Virus record (IMG/VR): IMGVR_UViG_3300018079_000019
Span: 1 to 41,966 of that record
DNA length: 41,966 nt
From: a virus
Reading direction: 5' to 3' (one strand)
Translations under genes and position numbers: made by a program
The notes under the pieces: model-generated
Told to the model about the DNA's origin: nothing
The model's database searches: none
Seen by the model: only the letters and a program-made list of their open reading frames with translations
Shown here: piece by piece, positions 20,318-35,180 of the stretch
Layout: every line of letters begins with the position of its first letter
How positions within the stretch are numbered: position 1 is the stretch's first letter

Positions 20318-22078
20318 CTAGAAGACCAGGTAGCTGAACTTGACGTTACCCCGGACCTTGCCCACAACCGCTACACCGTCTTGTGAGGCAGGAACAGCGA
20401 GTCGCCGCATCCCTGGGCCCAGGGTCGCGGGGTCGAACGCATCCGCTAGTACCCGCTGGGTGTAGTTTGGCCGGAGAGCCTGAACAGAGCGCCACTTCAC
20501 CACGCAGGAACCGGTGGCAGGTTCAGTAGCGTCAATCTTGATGGGAGCCAGCTCGGCCTCGTCGGCCCGTGTCCCCTTCCCGGTGTACGGGCCGGGGGCC
20601 TGCCAGACGAAGACCTTGCTGCTTGAGGTGATGCTTCCGTCCGTGATGGTGAACTTCCCCCGCCACACCGCCTCGGGGGCTGCGCCGAGATTGACTTCGA
20701 CGGTCGTGGCGGCGGGAGGGGCGCCCGCCGGGGCTGCGAACGTACCGTCGGCGCGGAGGAACAGTGAGCCGCCGGGGAACCTGAAAGATGGGTCCGTGAT
20801 GGCGAGGACGTTTCGGCCTTGCGGCCAGTCCCAGTCGTCGTCTTCGGTCTGGAAGGGAAGCCAGACGGTAGGAGCCGCGGCCCCGGCGGCAGGACCGCCG
20901 GCGCTAGGTGTGAGGATGTTGGCGCGGATGCTGTACCGGTTCGCCGTCGTTGTCGGAGCGTAGAAGCCCCAGTCTACGAACCAGTACGAGGCACCACCCG
21001 GGTCGTACGTTCGGTCGCTTCCGCTGCCGTCAAAGTAGATGCGAGTCTCAGCACCGGCAGCACGGCCGTGCTGGTACGCAATCCAGTAGTCGCCGGCGGT
21101 GAGCCATTTCCCGATGGGGATTGCCAGCCAGCGCGGGTCGGTGTTCCCTCCCGCTCCGGACGTATCATCGAGCAGGACCGAGGCATCGTCGCCCTGAACG
21201 TAGGCGACGACCCGGTTCGGAGTCCCCGCCGTGTCGTCGTAGACCGCCGCGGCCAACCCACCAAGGACGTCGTTCGCGTTGCCGCCGTCCACGTATGCTT
21301 CGATGCTGGTCAGAAGCCCGGCTGCTGCCAGAGTGATTTTCTTGGCATACACCCGGCTGACAGCCATTGCTTCGGTGCTGACGCCAATAACGTTGTAGCC
21401 GAGGTACTCCTGCGTTACGCCACCGCCGTCTGCACCTGCGGGACCAGCGGGCCCCTGCGGGCCGGGCGGCCCAAGTGGGCCCTCCTCGCCTTCGGCCGCG
21501 GGCCACATACCGGGGGGACCGGTGGAGCCGGCTGCTCCGGGGGCTCCCGCCCCACCAGGCGGACCTGGACTTCCAGGAGGACCAGGGAGTCCGTCGTCGC
21601 CCTCCACCTCGAGCCACATGCCGGGGGGCCCTGTCGGACCCTGGGGACCTGGAGCACCCGGGTCACCGGGCGTTCCGGCGCCGCCGCCACCGCCGGCGCT
21701 GGAGGGGAAGTGCTCGTGCTCATCGTCGGCCGGGAAGAGGAGATGGTAGCCGAGGTTGCTGCCGACGCCGCCGTAGATGGCGTCCGGGGCGAGTGGTCCG
21801 CCCTCGGAGCCACCGCCGTCGACCGCACCGTCGGCCGGCGTAGAGTGGTCGTGGTCCTCGACGACGAGGAGGTCCTGCTCGTCGATGTACTCCTTGGTGT
21901 CGCGGGCGAGCTTGTTGAACTTCGCGACGAAGGCCCGGTACTGGCCGTCGATGTGAGTGAAGTTCTGCTCCGCCTCCGACGCAAGCTGCGCGAGCTGCTT
22001 CTGAAAAGTCTCGGCCTTCGCCGGCCCTACGGGCTGCTGAGGGTCGTCTGCGGCACCCTGGATTTCATCGTCTGCCAT
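20318..22078 (-). CDS. Collagen-like tail fibre protein, 586 aa
   Basis: Residues ~20-70 are helical and may attach to the particle. Residues ~136-220 are Gly-X-Y collagen repeats broken twice by the related inserts [10 protein letters not shown] and [10 protein letters not shown], each preceded by GPPG. The C-terminal ~360 residues are beta-rich and probably form the receptor-binding head. Trimeric fibres of this design bind the host surface. The next upstream gene (lectin-like) overlaps by 14 bases, so both are made together. ATG 22078 with GAGGGAA upstream. Confidence 0.75.
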
Positions 22079-28917: not shown

Positions 28918-30828
28918 CTATCTTGACCCACCGGAGCGGCCGGCGGGGGTCCGGGCGCCGCCCTTGGTGGGGACGCCGAAGGCCGCGATATTCAGGCCAG
29001 GCGCCCCGCCACCTTCCTGCGGGCGGGCGGAGAGAACGGTTTCGAGCTGGGCGGCCTCCTGCTCCTTCGCGAGCTCCTCCTGGCTCTTCACGAGCGTGAG
29101 GATGTCCTCCTCAGAGAGGATGCCGGTCTCGCGCAGCACGGCCCGGATGAGGTCGGGGCGAGACGTTTCGGGGAGCGGGATGAGCAAGTTCATGACGAGC
29201 ATCATGCGCTGGAGGCGCTCATCGCGCGTCAGGTTCTCGCGCGGCGTGATGGCGACGTCGATGTCGGCCTCGATGGCGATGTCCTCGCGCGTCCAGGTCC
29301 AGGTGAACTCCTCGCCGGTCTCCGACACGAAGCGGTGCATCCGCTCGGCGTCGTAGAAGACCTGCATGAGCTGGAGCATGGTCCGGGCGATGCTGAGGTA
29401 CCACTCCTCGAGGTTCCCCCGACGCTCGGCCTGGCGCACGTCCCCGTGAGCCGACACGAGCTGGGTTTCCGCGGCGGTCTGGCGCTTCGAGGTGAAGACG
29501 CCGCGCATGACATCCGAAGCGCCGGTCGCCTCTTTGAGCTCCTCGACAATCTTGTCGGGGACCCCGTAGACCTCCTGCGAGAGGATGGGGAGCTGCGGCG
29601 TCCAGATGCCGTTCGGGGGAGTCTGGCGGGAGGTCTCGACGTACGCCCCCCACTCGGTCGACTCGAGGGCCTTCTTACCGGCCTTCGTGAGACCCTCTTC
29701 CGGGCCGAAGAACTTCGGGATGGTCCGGGCGACGTTCGTCGCGATGTTCGAGCGGTACTCGTCGAGCTCCTCGAGGCCGTTCTGGATGAGGCGGGCGTCG
29801 CCGAGGCCCTCGAACTCGTCCGAGACTTCGCGCACCATGAGGGGCTTGAAGGGGTTCCGGTCCTCGAGGTCGAGGTTGAACATCAGCGGGTTGAGGCGCT
29901 GGTAGAGAACCAGGTCGTTCCGGTCGCGGGGGAAGACGGTGATGAGGCCGGTCTCGAAGTCCCACATCTCGACGACGGTCACGCGCGAGTCGTCCTCGTG
30001 CTCGTCCTTCGGAACGGTGTTCATGAAGCCCAGGTCGCTCTCGAGGCCCGTCAGGACCTTCGAGTCGCCCTTGAGGTCATCGAGGAGGCGCTTCCCTTCG
30101 GCCTCCCCGTAGCGGTCGAGCACGAAGGCGCGGTAGGTCGGGTTCCACACGACCTCCGTCTGCGGCATCGGCGTGTACTGCGCGACCCAGCGGATGTCCT
30201 CGACCTGCTTCGCCGAGGGGTCGTAGCGAACGAGCTTCCAGGGGACGTAGTCGACGCAGACGCGGTCGCGCATGACGACGGTCTGGTCTTCGCGGGTCGG
30301 GACCATCTCCGCGAGCTCATCCGCGGTGAGCTTCGCGTCCTTCCCTAGGAGCTCCTCCATCTCGGCCTTGATGGCGGCATCCGGACGGTCCGCGGTCATC
30401 ACGTCGGTCTCGTAGTCGTAGTACACCTTGACCCAGCCGACGTCCGCGAGGAGCGCGTCCTTGACGGCCTTCTTGCACCGCTTCTGGCCCTTCGTGTCGC
30501 GCCAGGATTGGTTCAAGCCCTGGGTCGCTACGTAGGCCTGCGAGCGCGTGCCGCGCCCAAGAGCCTTGGTGATGAACTCGACGTCCACGGCGACCATCGA
30601 AGAGTAGAGGGTGTCGATGATGCCGGTGCCGACGCCCGTGGTGACACGGTGGCCGCGGGAGGTGAACTGCCCCTCCTTCGGCATCTCGCGGTACCGGTCG
30701 AAGAACTCCTCGCGCTCCTTCGACATCCGAGCGTACTTCTCGTCGGCGACCTTCAACCGGCGGGAGTAGATGGCGAGCATGACTTCCTCGTCGTCGTAGA
30801 CGCGGAACACTTGGTTCCCAGCCATCAT
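28918..30828 (-). CDS. Portal protein
   Basis: 636 aa, large as in short-tailed phages. Directly downstream of TerL, overlapping by 4 bases. Two adjacent ATG codons (30828, 30825) could start it; AGGAG lies just upstream. The N-terminal helices (RRLKVADEKYARMSKEREEF) precede a wing-like region (VGWVKVYYDYETDVMTADRP), long middle strands and helices, and the C-terminal crown helix area (EEDILTLVKSQEELAKEQEA). It forms the dodecameric ring for DNA entry and exit and binds terminase. Confidence 0.85.
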   Translation of the reverse strand: MMAGNQVFRVYDDEEVMLAIYSRRLKVADEKYARMSKEREEFFDRYREMPKEGQFTSRGHRVTTGVGTGIIDTLYSSMVAVDVEFITKALGRGTRSQAYVATQGLNQSWRDTKGQKRCKKAVKDALLADVGWVKVYYDYETDVMTADRPDAAIKAEMEELLGKDAKLTADELAEMVPTREDQTVVMRDRVCVDYVPWKLVRYDPSAKQVEDIRWVAQYTPMPQTEVVWNPTYRAFVLDRYGEAEGKRLLDDLKGDSKVLTGLESDLGFMNTVPKDEHEDDSRVTVVEMWDFETGLITVFPRDRNDLVLYQRLNPLMFNLDLEDRNPFKPLMVREVSDEFEGLGDARLIQNGLEELDEYRSNIATNVARTIPKFFGPEEGLTKAGKKALESTEWGAYVETSRQTPPNGIWTPQLPILSQEVYGVPDKIVEELKEATGASDVMRGVFTSKRQTAAETQLVSAHGDVRQAERRGNLEEWYLSIARTMLQLMQVFYDAERMHRFVSETGEEFTWTWTREDIAIEADIDVAITPRENLTRDERLQRMMLVMNLLIPLPETSRPDLIRAVLRETGILSEEDILTLVKSQEELAKEQEAAQLETVLSARPQEGGGAPGLNIAAFGVPTKGGARTPAGRSGGSR

Positions 30829-32294
30829 GCTCCTCTCGGGACGATGGTCCCGGGCTCAAAGGTCGCGCGACGCTTCCGGCTGTTGCCGAGCCAGCGGTCG
30901 CTGTCGGGCTTGCTCAGCCCTTGCTGGAAGACGTAGCCGTACTGGTTCGGCTCGAACTCCTTCTCCGACGCGTCCTCCACGCTGCGGGGGCCGAAGGGGA
31001 GGAGGACGGAGGCGGCGTAGCGGAGGGCGTCGACGTAGTGGGAGGTCCAGTCGTGGACCGGGTCCTTCGCCGACTTCATGCCCTCGGTGCCGAGCTTCCA
31101 CTTATGGGAGGCCAGCGCGTGAGAGACCGTGTCCGCGACACCCTTCGCGATGAGGACGCGCCCGCCGGCCATCATGTTGTTCAAGATGCGGAGGGAGTAG
31201 TCCTGCGGCCGCTTGAGGACGGGGCCGACGTTCACGCCGGCGGTGTTCAGGTCGGCGATGACGCTCGTGCCGGTCGAGGGGTTCCGCTGCATCCCGGCGG
31301 GGTCCCCGTAGTCGCCGTCGGTCTTGGCACCCTGGAAGGCCGTCTCGAGCCGCTCCTTGTAGGCGAGGGCCCAGTCGGCGGCGGTCCACTCCTTCTCGGC
31401 GATGACGTCGAGGATATAGAGCTGCGGGACCTGCATGCGCGGGCCCTTGTAGTTCGCCCCGTCGGCAACCTGCTTGTCGAGCCACTCGACCTGCATGAAG
31501 AGGCAGACGCCGAGGTCACCGAAGCCGAAGTCCCAGCCGGTGTAGAGGGGGAGCTCCGGGCGGTACTCGATAGGGACGAGGAACGACGCCGGGTCCCAGT
31601 AGGGGAAGACGCCGCCCTCGACGAGGCCGACGAACTTGCCCTCGACCTCCTGCTCGTAGAACCGGCCGTGGTAGTTGGCCTTGAGGTTGTCGATGTAGCC
31701 CGGAGGGAGATGGCGGTTCTGCGTCGTCGGAGCGTTGTACCAGACGGCGCCCGGGACGCGATTCTCCGAGTCCTCGTGGAAGACACGCCACATCCAGTCG
31801 TAGCCGTTCGGGGTCGAGCACACGAACCCGGAGGTGTCGTAGCCCCGCTGGCGGAGACGACCCGTGAGGACCTTCCACGCCTCCATGGTCACGTTGCGGC
31901 CCTCGTCGATGAAGAACCAGGAGTATTCCGGGCCGCGCATCCAGTCCGGCTTGTCGAGGGACCGGAGACGGATGACGGACCCGTTGATGAGGGTCAGCTC
32001 CTTCTCCGACTTCTTGTAGTCCTTCGACCAGTCGGCCAGGCCGGTGATGGTGATGATTTCCTCGAGGGTCGGGACGATGGTGTCTCTGAGGACGGGGTAG
32101 GACGATGCGGCGATGACGCCGCGGGCGGCGTGGAAGACGCCGTCGGGCTTCGGCTGGAGCGAGTATCGGAGGCCACGGGCGATGCCGGCGAACGTCTTAC
32201 CGGCGCCGACCCCCCCGACGTACGCCGTGTACTGCGAGGGCGACATCACGAAGTCGGTCTGTGCGCCCGGGTTCAGGTCCAGCGCGCGACTCAT
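30825..32294 (-). CDS. terL: Terminase large subunit
   Basis: 489 aa. The ATPase half has Walker A GGVGAGKT (residues 27-34), Walker B WFFIDEG (D130, E131) and a coupling motif CSTPNG (159-164). The nuclease half starts with YTGWDFGFGD (D255), the first metal-binding aspartate of the RNase H-like fold, and has further acidic residues (KTDGDYGDPAG). It cuts and pumps DNA into the procapsid through the portal, whose gene overlaps by 4 bases. Upstream in-frame codons contain a stop, so ATG 32294 is the start. Confidence 0.93.
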   Translation of the reverse strand: MSRALDLNPGAQTDFVMSPSQYTAYVGGVGAGKTFAGIARGLRYSLQPKPDGVFHAARGVIAASSYPVLRDTIVPTLEEIITITGLADWSKDYKKSEKELTLINGSVIRLRSLDKPDWMRGPEYSWFFIDEGRNVTMEAWKVLTGRLRQRGYDTSGFVCSTPNGYDWMWRVFHEDSENRVPGAVWYNAPTTQNRHLPPGYIDNLKANYHGRFYEQEVEGKFVGLVEGGVFPYWDPASFLVPIEYRPELPLYTGWDFGFGDLGVCLFMQVEWLDKQVADGANYKGPRMQVPQLYILDVIAEKEWTAADWALAYKERLETAFQGAKTDGDYGDPAGMQRNPSTGTSVIADLNTAGVNVGPVLKRPQDYSLRILNNMMAGGRVLIAKGVADTVSHALASHKWKLGTEGMKSAKDPVHDWTSHYVDALRYAASVLLPFGPRSVEDASEKEFEPNQYGYVFQQGLSKPDSDRWLGNSRKRRATFEPGTIVPRGA

Positions 32295-33775: not shown

Positions 33776-33979
33776 TCATTGACCGCCTTCCTGGACGTAC
33801 GACTCGATGAACTCTGTCGCGTTCTCCTCGAGGACGGCATCGACTTCGTCGAGCATGTCGTCGAGCTCCGCGCGGAGTCTGTCGGCCTCGCGATGGGTCC
33901 GCGAGTCCTTCATGACCTCCGTCCGGGTGTTCATGTCCACTGTGGTCCGGGGCTTCCGGATGCGCTGCTGGCTACCCAT
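33776..33979 (-). CDS. pup: Phage-encoded prokaryotic ubiquitin-like protein (Pup)
   Basis: 67 aa from ATG 33979, close to the 64 aa of mycobacterial Pup. The C-terminal 28 residues (from D40) contain DDMLDEVDAVLEENATEF and end ESYVQEGGQ. From memory, 19 of these 28 are identical to mycobacterial Pup, with no gap. Helix residues that contact the proteasomal ATPase (Mpa/ARC) and the Gly-Gly-Gln end are kept. Host Dop would have to deamidate Gln67 before PafA could ligate it to lysines. The first 30 residues (MGSQQRIRKPRTTVDMNTRT and on) are unlike the bacterial N-terminus. No ligase or Dop gene is visible. The gene overlaps the upstream gene by 8 bases in the late operon. Function as a tag is inferred from the family. 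Confidence 0.9.
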   Translation of the reverse strand: MGSQQRIRKPRTTVDMNTRTEVMKDSRTHREADRLRAELDDMLDEVDAVLEENATEFIESYVQEGGQ

Positions 33980-34243: not shown

Positions 34244-34588
34244 CTAGTCCAGGATTTCCTCCTCGGGCCCGCCGAAGAGCTCGGCGGCCGTGGGAATGCT
34301 CGTCGTGGTGCCGTCCTCGCGGCGCATGGTGCCGGGGCGGCCGATTCCGTACTCGAGGGCCCGGGTCAACGCCTTGAGGCGGTCCTCGCCTTTGAGGCCC
34401 GCGAAGTCGCCCCTACCCAGGGCGGCGTCCAAGAGCTCCTTGATGAGCTCGGGGGCGGCGGTCCGGGCGGCCTCGGCGGCCCGTTCCTCGGGGGAGAGGT
34501 CGGCCTTCCGGCGCCGGACCTCAGCGGACCTGGCGGCCGCTTCGGCCGGCGTCAGCCCACCGAAGTTGACGATGTCGCCCTCAGCCAC
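34244..34588 (-). CDS. Possible terminase small subunit or DNA-binding protein, 114 aa
   Basis: Start placed at GTG 34588, which overlaps the stop of the upstream HTH gene by 8 bases. Longer frames look non-coding. Helical and charged: GGLTPAEAAARSAEVRRRKA, then DLSPEERAAEAARTAAPELI, and a later KGEDRLKALTRALEYGIGRP. The style is like DUF5681/small-terminase-type proteins found near TerL. TerL is about 2 kb downstream in the same operon. Assignment by composition and position only. Confidence 0.55.
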   Translation of the reverse strand: MAEGDIVNFGGLTPAEAAARSAEVRRRKADLSPEERAAEAARTAAPELIKELLDAALGRGDFAGLKGEDRLKALTRALEYGIGRPGTMRREDGTTTSIPTAAELFGGPEEEILD

Positions 34589-34805
34589 GGTCGTTGAGCT
34601 CCCGAGCCTTGGCGAGAGCCTTTCGGAGGTGCTTCGACACCGCCTGTTGGGTGATGCCGAGAAGGGTTCCGACCTGGGCCTGGGTCCGGCCGGGAAGGGA
34701 CATGGCGAGAACGACGCGGGCCTGCATCGGCGTGAGCTCCCAGCGGTACCGCATGTACTCGGCTGGCACTCTGCTAGGGTCACCGCTCGTCCGGCGCTCG
34801 CTCAT
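34581..34805 (-). CDS. Sigma-70 region 4-like HTH protein, 74 aa
   Basis: ATG 34805 after GGGAGGAACGAG. The C-terminal 50 residues match region 4 of sigma factors: LTPMQARVVLAMSLPG, then TQAQVGTLLGITQQAVSKHL and RKALAKAREL. Only region 4 is present, so it cannot be a full sigma factor. It may regulate transcription or serve as the DNA-recognition part of the terminase. It is the first gene of the late operon, and two TGCAA-N5-TGCAA sites lie upstream of it. Autoregulation is inferred. Confidence 0.75.
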   Translation of the reverse strand: MSERRTSGDPSRVPAEYMRYRWELTPMQARVVLAMSLPGRTQAQVGTLLGITQQAVSKHLRKALAKARELNDRG

Positions 34806-34820
34806 CTCGTTCCTCCCTAC

Positions 34821-34835
34821 TGCAAGTCGTTGCAA
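34821..34835. promoter_or_regulatory. Operator-like site 1, TGCAA-N5-TGCAA
   Basis: TGCAAGTCGTTGCAA, 15 bases before the first codon of the HTH gene, i.e. just behind its ribosome-binding site. It matches the site at 34988-35002 at 14 of 15 positions. Binding by the adjacent HTH protein is inferred. Confidence 0.6.
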
Positions 34836-34987
34836 CTGGCGACGGGCAAGGAACCCGCGAGGCGTGGCCGGCGTGGCCGCTGAGGAGAGCCAGTCCAGAA
34901 GGGGAGGAGAGACAGTCGCCCTTGCTCTGTTCCCTCTGCTACTGGGAAGGAGCACAACCATATCGCCACTACCAGCAACAATGTAGA

Positions 34988-35002
34988 TGCAAGCCGTTGC
35001 AA
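34988..35002. promoter_or_regulatory. Operator-like site 2, TGCAA-N5-TGCAA
   Basis: TGCAAGCCGTTGCAA, 167 bases from site 1 and one mismatch to it. It lies in the A+T-richest part of the region (ATAGCGATTTCTACAA follows), where a promoter for the late operon would be expected. Confidence 0.6.
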
Positions 35003-35147
35003 TAGCGATTTCTACAACCCCCCACCTTGGGGGTCTGTGGGTAGTGTGGTCACTCGTGCGAACGGCCTAGGCTGGGGGCACCGGTCCGCGGGCATGCGCT
35101 AGGGTCGTGTGCGTTTGACCTAGGCCGGTCGGGCCCACGCTCGCCAT

Positions 35148-35180
35148 TGGTCTTAGGTCTATGGTCTTAGGTCTATGGTC
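35148..35180 (+). repeat. 14-bp tandem repeat, two full copies and a partial third
   Basis: TGGTCTTAGGTCTA at 35148-35161 and again at 35162-35175, followed by TGGTC at 35176-35180. Related TAGG-containing words occur on both sides (for example near 35066, 35119 and 35330). Possible regulator or terminase binding sites. Confidence 0.7.

Follow-up and report, generated by a model that had tools for sequence, protein, structure and literature searches.

The question raised by this locus is what two nearly identical 15-bp sites do in front of the late genes of an uncultured virus, and which protein might recognize them. The stretch analyzed, referred to here as the window, is the whole viral record of 41,966 bp, in which genes were picked for annotation by size and position from a list of open reading frames, with no gene caller; all of those picked lie on the minus strand. 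The late operon, in which a small helix-turn-helix gene comes first, runs from a first conserved late gene through several small genes to the large terminase (TerL) and the portal and is preceded by a non-coding stretch of 0.4 to 0.6 kb. The features needed to follow the argument are these:

Positions 34988 to 35002, no strand given: site 2, TGCAAGCCGTTGCAA, the palindrome TGCAA-GCCG-TTGCA followed by A, with the inverted repeat at 34988 to 35001
Positions 34821 to 34835, no strand given: site 1, TGCAAGTCGTTGCAA, the palindrome TGCAA-GTCG-TTGCA followed by A, with the inverted repeat at 34821 to 34834
Positions 34581 to 34805, minus strand: gene for a 74-aa sigma-70 region 4-type or KorA-like helix-turn-helix (HTH) protein, assigned by PF04545 and an AlphaFold model
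Positions 34244 to 34588, minus strand: first conserved late gene, 114 aa, GTG start, predicted to be all-helical; the anchor for comparing relatives
Positions 30825 to 32294, minus strand: large terminase, the query for finding relatives
Positions 28918 to 30828, minus strand: portal

Both 15-mers are present, identical at 14 of 15 bases and 167 bp apart from start to start, as the initial annotation had described them. It had read them as a TGCAA-N5-TGCAA direct repeat; the sites stand, but they are better described as a perfect inverted repeat, TGCAA-N4-TTGCA, a stronger reading that the direct-repeat one masks, since the reverse complement of TTGCAA is again TTGCAA. The genome-wide scan that it had proposed gave a clear outcome, as the exact 15-mer pattern occurs nowhere else in the record and the sites are not spread randomly through the genome. 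With one mismatch allowed, only two places in the 41,966 bp matched TGCAANNNNNTGCAA; as the site is a palindrome, each of them was hit on both strands. The expectation was 0.31 matches, and none of 100 shuffles reached four. Base composition predicts about 0.01 copies of TGCAA-N4-TTGCA for the window and 0.0002 for the intergenic region. There are just 10 fixed bases per site, which gives chance similarity its one point in favor, but this explanation was rejected on the basis of the shuffles together with the positional test in relatives described below, and we regard it as scarcely credible. A LacI-type operator with a central CG was also considered and rejected, as the four central bases vary. 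The spacing equals 15.9 turns of the helix at 10.5 bp per turn, and these ~16 turns could accommodate looping, of which they are by themselves no evidence. Both sites are unchanged in L028, which over positions 34527 to 35180 differs from the window by a single base, at 34897, between the sites; at 99.7% identity to the window, this contig adds little.

The relatives were found by the large terminase (23 uncultured viral contigs, or 80 with an alignment query). Among cultured phages, none is close by DNA, and terminase identity is below 27% in the best-ranked matches. Every terminase relative was searched for TGCAA-N4-TTGCA, with the first conserved late gene serving as an independent reference point and with near-exact arms, which hardly sample variation within the palindromes. 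Across 30 non-redundant loci, all seven palindromes found are located no more than 450 bp upstream of the first conserved late gene, where 0.004 were expected over the 30 loci, and none lies elsewhere in these loci, where 0.08 were expected. Two of the seven are the window lineage's own, and the other five come from outside it (L130, of the lineage of L128, L183, L189, L018, and L179); the palindrome stands some 280 to 430 bp upstream of the first conserved late gene. G001, a 50-kb relative, has its only exact copy of the palindrome, TGCAACGCCTTGCA, at this place. On the TerL tree, the palindrome appears on both sides but patchily, and it is absent from L126, L131, L144, and L176, all close neighbors of palindrome bearers. 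An alternative palindrome, TTGAAYGGCCRTTCAA, occupies the place of the TGCAA palindrome in three relatives (L137, L156, and L157) and is single-copy in G002 (positions 31069 to 31084 of the L137 record) and G015 (positions 20704 to 20719 of the L157 record). A short palindrome before the packaging genes can be traced through a family in which terminase identity is only ~42%, and its sequence type switches between lineages. Since palindromes lie at the same place in relatives, site 2 is the copy at the conserved position and site 1 a lineage-specific one. The late-gene switch suggested by the initial annotation is a reasonable reading, because the sites precede the late operon and the position of the palindrome is conserved in relatives; the mechanism, including the sign of regulation, is what we infer from this arrangement.

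The surroundings of site 2 contain further conserved elements:

Positions 35028 to 35071, minus strand: conserved block CCTAGGCC..CGCAC..ACTACCCACAGACCCCCA in the intergenic region, upstream of site 2
Positions 34965 to 34976, minus strand: GCTGGTAGTGGC, found by inspection and tentatively a degenerate copy of the CTCTGACC(A/T)G element
Positions 34932 to 34959, minus strand: block GGTTGTG-N-AGTAGCAGAGGG, resembling a promoter or leader and lying downstream of site 2

When ten leaders were aligned, a common order emerged, in which the palindrome is followed after ~8 to 29 bp by CTCTGACC(A/T)G in either orientation and then by GGTTGTG-N-(TA)GTAGAGGG/TATGGAGGG; the GGTT and GG of the leader-like block are invariant in all ten. 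Its description as promoter-like is drawn from this conservation. The region holds no match to the sigma-70 consensus -35/-10 promoter (0.2 expected by chance), and a consensus promoter at the sites themselves was rejected, with none found and with site 1 leaving no room for a -10 element before the ribosome-binding site. When the palindrome and CTCTGACC were sought together across the collection, four stretches of this phage family (three lineages) and ten unrelated ones were recovered, the latter being about the number that we would expect by chance. The element CTCTGACC(A/T)G / CCTCTGACCTGCGGTTT follows the palindrome, in either orientation, in many relatives (among them L183:2861, L018, L189, L142, and L157), and it is widespread in other viral contigs, at least 120 of them. 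The intergenic region also carries a 14-bp tandem repeat, TGGTCTTAGGTCTA, at 35148 to 35180, with 2.4 copies in the window and ~5 at the end of L028, so that its copy number is variable. Sequences resembling tRNA occur in the intergenic region of other relatives (L193, ~900 to 1190; L184 and L186, 1 to 100), and two of these contigs that come from different metagenomes, L184 and L186, begin at an identical base of that region.

The gene adjacent to site 1 encodes what the initial annotation had called a region 4-type HTH, and this is borne out by Pfam (PF04545, 32.8 bits against a cutoff of 24.1). The ATG of this gene (34805, minus strand) lies 15 bp beyond the end of site 1, which is directly upstream of the ribosome-binding site of the gene, TAGGGAGGA. 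In GTGGCTGA, the stop codon of the HTH gene overlaps the GTG at which the next gene begins. The single-sequence AlphaFold model of the 74-aa protein has a pLDDT of 85, and a fold search with it gave sigma region 4 domains and KorA as the best matches, none below an E value of 0.001. Although the protein resembles sigma-70 region 4 in both sequence and model, its 74 aa hold region 4 only; a complete sigma factor was ruled out by the absence of region 2, and no consensus promoter accompanies the sites. KorA (TrfB) is a plasmid repressor that binds palindromes. The likeness to it extends to the HTH sequence (PF16509, E value of 1e-3) and the fold (5clv, TM-score of 0.60), but the PF16509 score of 19.7 bits lies below the gathering score of 26.7, the KorA dimerization tail is missing, and the operator sequence differs. 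No dimerization domain is evident in the 74-aa protein. The binding sites of lambda CII read TTGC-N6-TTGC, as do both sites here on the minus strand; however, the inverted symmetry is better conserved, one TTGC is lost in L128 and L179, and no CII relative was recognized. The literature yielded nothing useful on the operator sequence.

Among the terminase relatives, the HTH gene occupies this place in L028 only, and site 1 was likewise seen in just the window and this contig. From L126, the nearest distinct relative (TerL 81 to 82% identical), the gene and both sites are missing. Related HTH domains are found at the C terminus of longer proteins (~180 to 200 aa) in G001, G004, G002, G015, and G008, and a search for further long relatives gave no new lineage. 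The recognition helix reads TQQAVSKHL in the window and SQQAVSKRL in the 197-aa protein of G001, both genomes with the TGCAA palindrome, and is of the SSAQ type in the two genomes with TTGAAYGGCCRTTCAA (SSAQERVERAL in G002 and SSAQRAVELA in G015). The counter-example is G004, in which the helix reads SQQAVSKQL and the TGCAA palindrome is missing. The type of helix thus matches the type of palindrome in four of five informative genomes, an agreement that is suggestive but limited to five genomes and that is partly explained by descent.

In all likelihood, the two sites are regulatory and of an ordinary kind. We see about an even chance that they are the operators of a late-operon switch, with the palindrome bound by a dimeric HTH regulator, and the adjacent 74-aa protein is the leading candidate for this binder, which is plausible but unproven. 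Under this model, the dimer would bind a palindrome of 14 to 16 bp and control, at its start, the late operon of packaging and structural genes in this phage family. Site 2 would be the ancestral copy, conserved in position and lying directly before the promoter-like leader block, and site 1 would be an extra copy that this lineage has alongside the 74-aa HTH gene. With a site at either end of the leader, the regulator could act from both sides, possibly through looping, and could control its own gene along with the rest of the late operon. If this is true, it would provide a concrete late-gene operator and a candidate protein for a phage family that has no near relative in culture. The autoregulation part of the initial annotation fared less well. 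An autoregulated operator should always lie beside the gene of its regulator, which is not what was found, and since relatives have the palindrome with no adjacent HTH gene (none stands at that position in L128/L130, L183, L189, L018, or L179), simple autoregulation is weakened; the joint absence of gene and sites from L126 and the agreement of helix and palindrome, with its one exception, speak for it.

The same relatives lend some weight to a different binder, either a host transcription factor or an unrecognized early phage protein, with the HTH gene as an accessory in a variable slot before the first conserved late gene. Palindromes like site 2 in five other lineages with no HTH gene nearby, their patchiness on the TerL tree, and the unrelated open reading frame that occupies the slot in L133 would all fit, and most early open reading frames gave no family match. 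Against this stand the concerted absence in L126, the partial agreement between recognition helix and palindrome, and the fact that the HTH is the sole DNA-binding domain recognized in the ~40 open reading frames of the window that were scanned, and we consider this explanation somewhat unlikely. The initial annotation had offered a terminase recognition site as the alternative to a switch, that is, a palindrome bound or cut by the terminase as a cosB- or pac-like packaging signal. Its location just upstream of the packaging operon would suit this function, and of the 18 contigs of relatives that exceed 15 kb, 10 have an end no farther than 2.7 kb upstream of TerL. Two of the relatives have terminal direct repeats in the intergenic region, namely G003 (L181/L228), the first 254 bp of which are repeated at its end with one mismatch, and G008 (L190/L229), which has a 75-bp repeat and ends in a C/T tail and sequencing-adapter sequence; the exact 99-bp repeat of G002 resembles a randomly placed assembly overlap. 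Physical genome ends therefore probably do lie in this intergenic region in some relatives. What fits less well is the palindrome itself, since its distance from the contig ends is not constant, most relatives lack it and some have another, and two copies 167 bp apart are ill-suited to a cut site. Contig ends can also arise from repeats that break assemblies. The 114-aa product of the first late gene is a possible candidate for the small terminase, but its predicted structure, with three main helices, contains no HTH, and a fold search found no homologue. We therefore regard a packaging signal as improbable.

A hairpin in the late transcript, with a 5-bp stem and a 4-nt loop and acting, for example, in translational control behind site 1, would make use of the location of this site next to the ribosome-binding site of the HTH gene. 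The stem is, however, short and weak, the loop sequence is variable, complementary changes are not seen, and the conserved copy of the palindrome is distant from any start codon, all of which makes this reading very unlikely. A structured RNA was likewise rejected, as Rfam gave nothing above threshold in the region and one sub-threshold snoRNA match elsewhere. An integrase attachment site was dismissed after 12 records gave no match to a tyrosine integrase.

Returning to an HTH-bound operator, a broader version of the model may be envisaged, in which uncultured phages control their late operon through one conserved palindromic operator, the sequence of which changes in step with the recognition helix of a phage-encoded region 4-type HTH protein, while in the window lineage the regulator gene would have been moved to or gained beside a doubled operator to form a loop-forming, autoregulated switch. 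In this full form, we consider the proposal speculative and on balance unlikely. Comparison with the late regulators Ltr, RinA, and ArpU from phages of Gram-positive bacteria places the arrangement in context. For Ltr, the location has been described, along with putative sites in the form of four direct repeats (PMC13123087). As in these systems, a gene for a small basic regulator lies at the border between early and late genes, before the packaging genes, and binding sites are expected in the leader that precedes the packaging genes. In contrast, the gene described here is downstream of both candidate sites and first in the late operon, its product has 74 aa rather than ~130, and the sites are palindromes rather than direct repeats. 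The 74-aa protein does not fall into the Ltr/RinA/ArpU families, with Pfam, PHROGs, and NCBIfam returning only generic region 4/HTH matches.

The late operon also contains a gene for a prokaryotic ubiquitin-like protein (Pup):

Positions 33776 to 33979, minus strand: Pup, 67 aa, ending in GGQ

The assignment is by NCBIfam TIGR03687 (50.4 bits against a cutoff of 41.45), and about a dozen relatives have orthologues, ending in GGQ or GGE, at the same place. A search of 50,697 phage records gave one weak match only, and no report of a phage-encoded Pup was found in the literature. The presence of Pup suggests an actinobacterial host, and the phage family is probably actinobacterial. Use of, or interference with, host pupylation is a possible function, and this Pup-like protein may be of more interest than the sites themselves.
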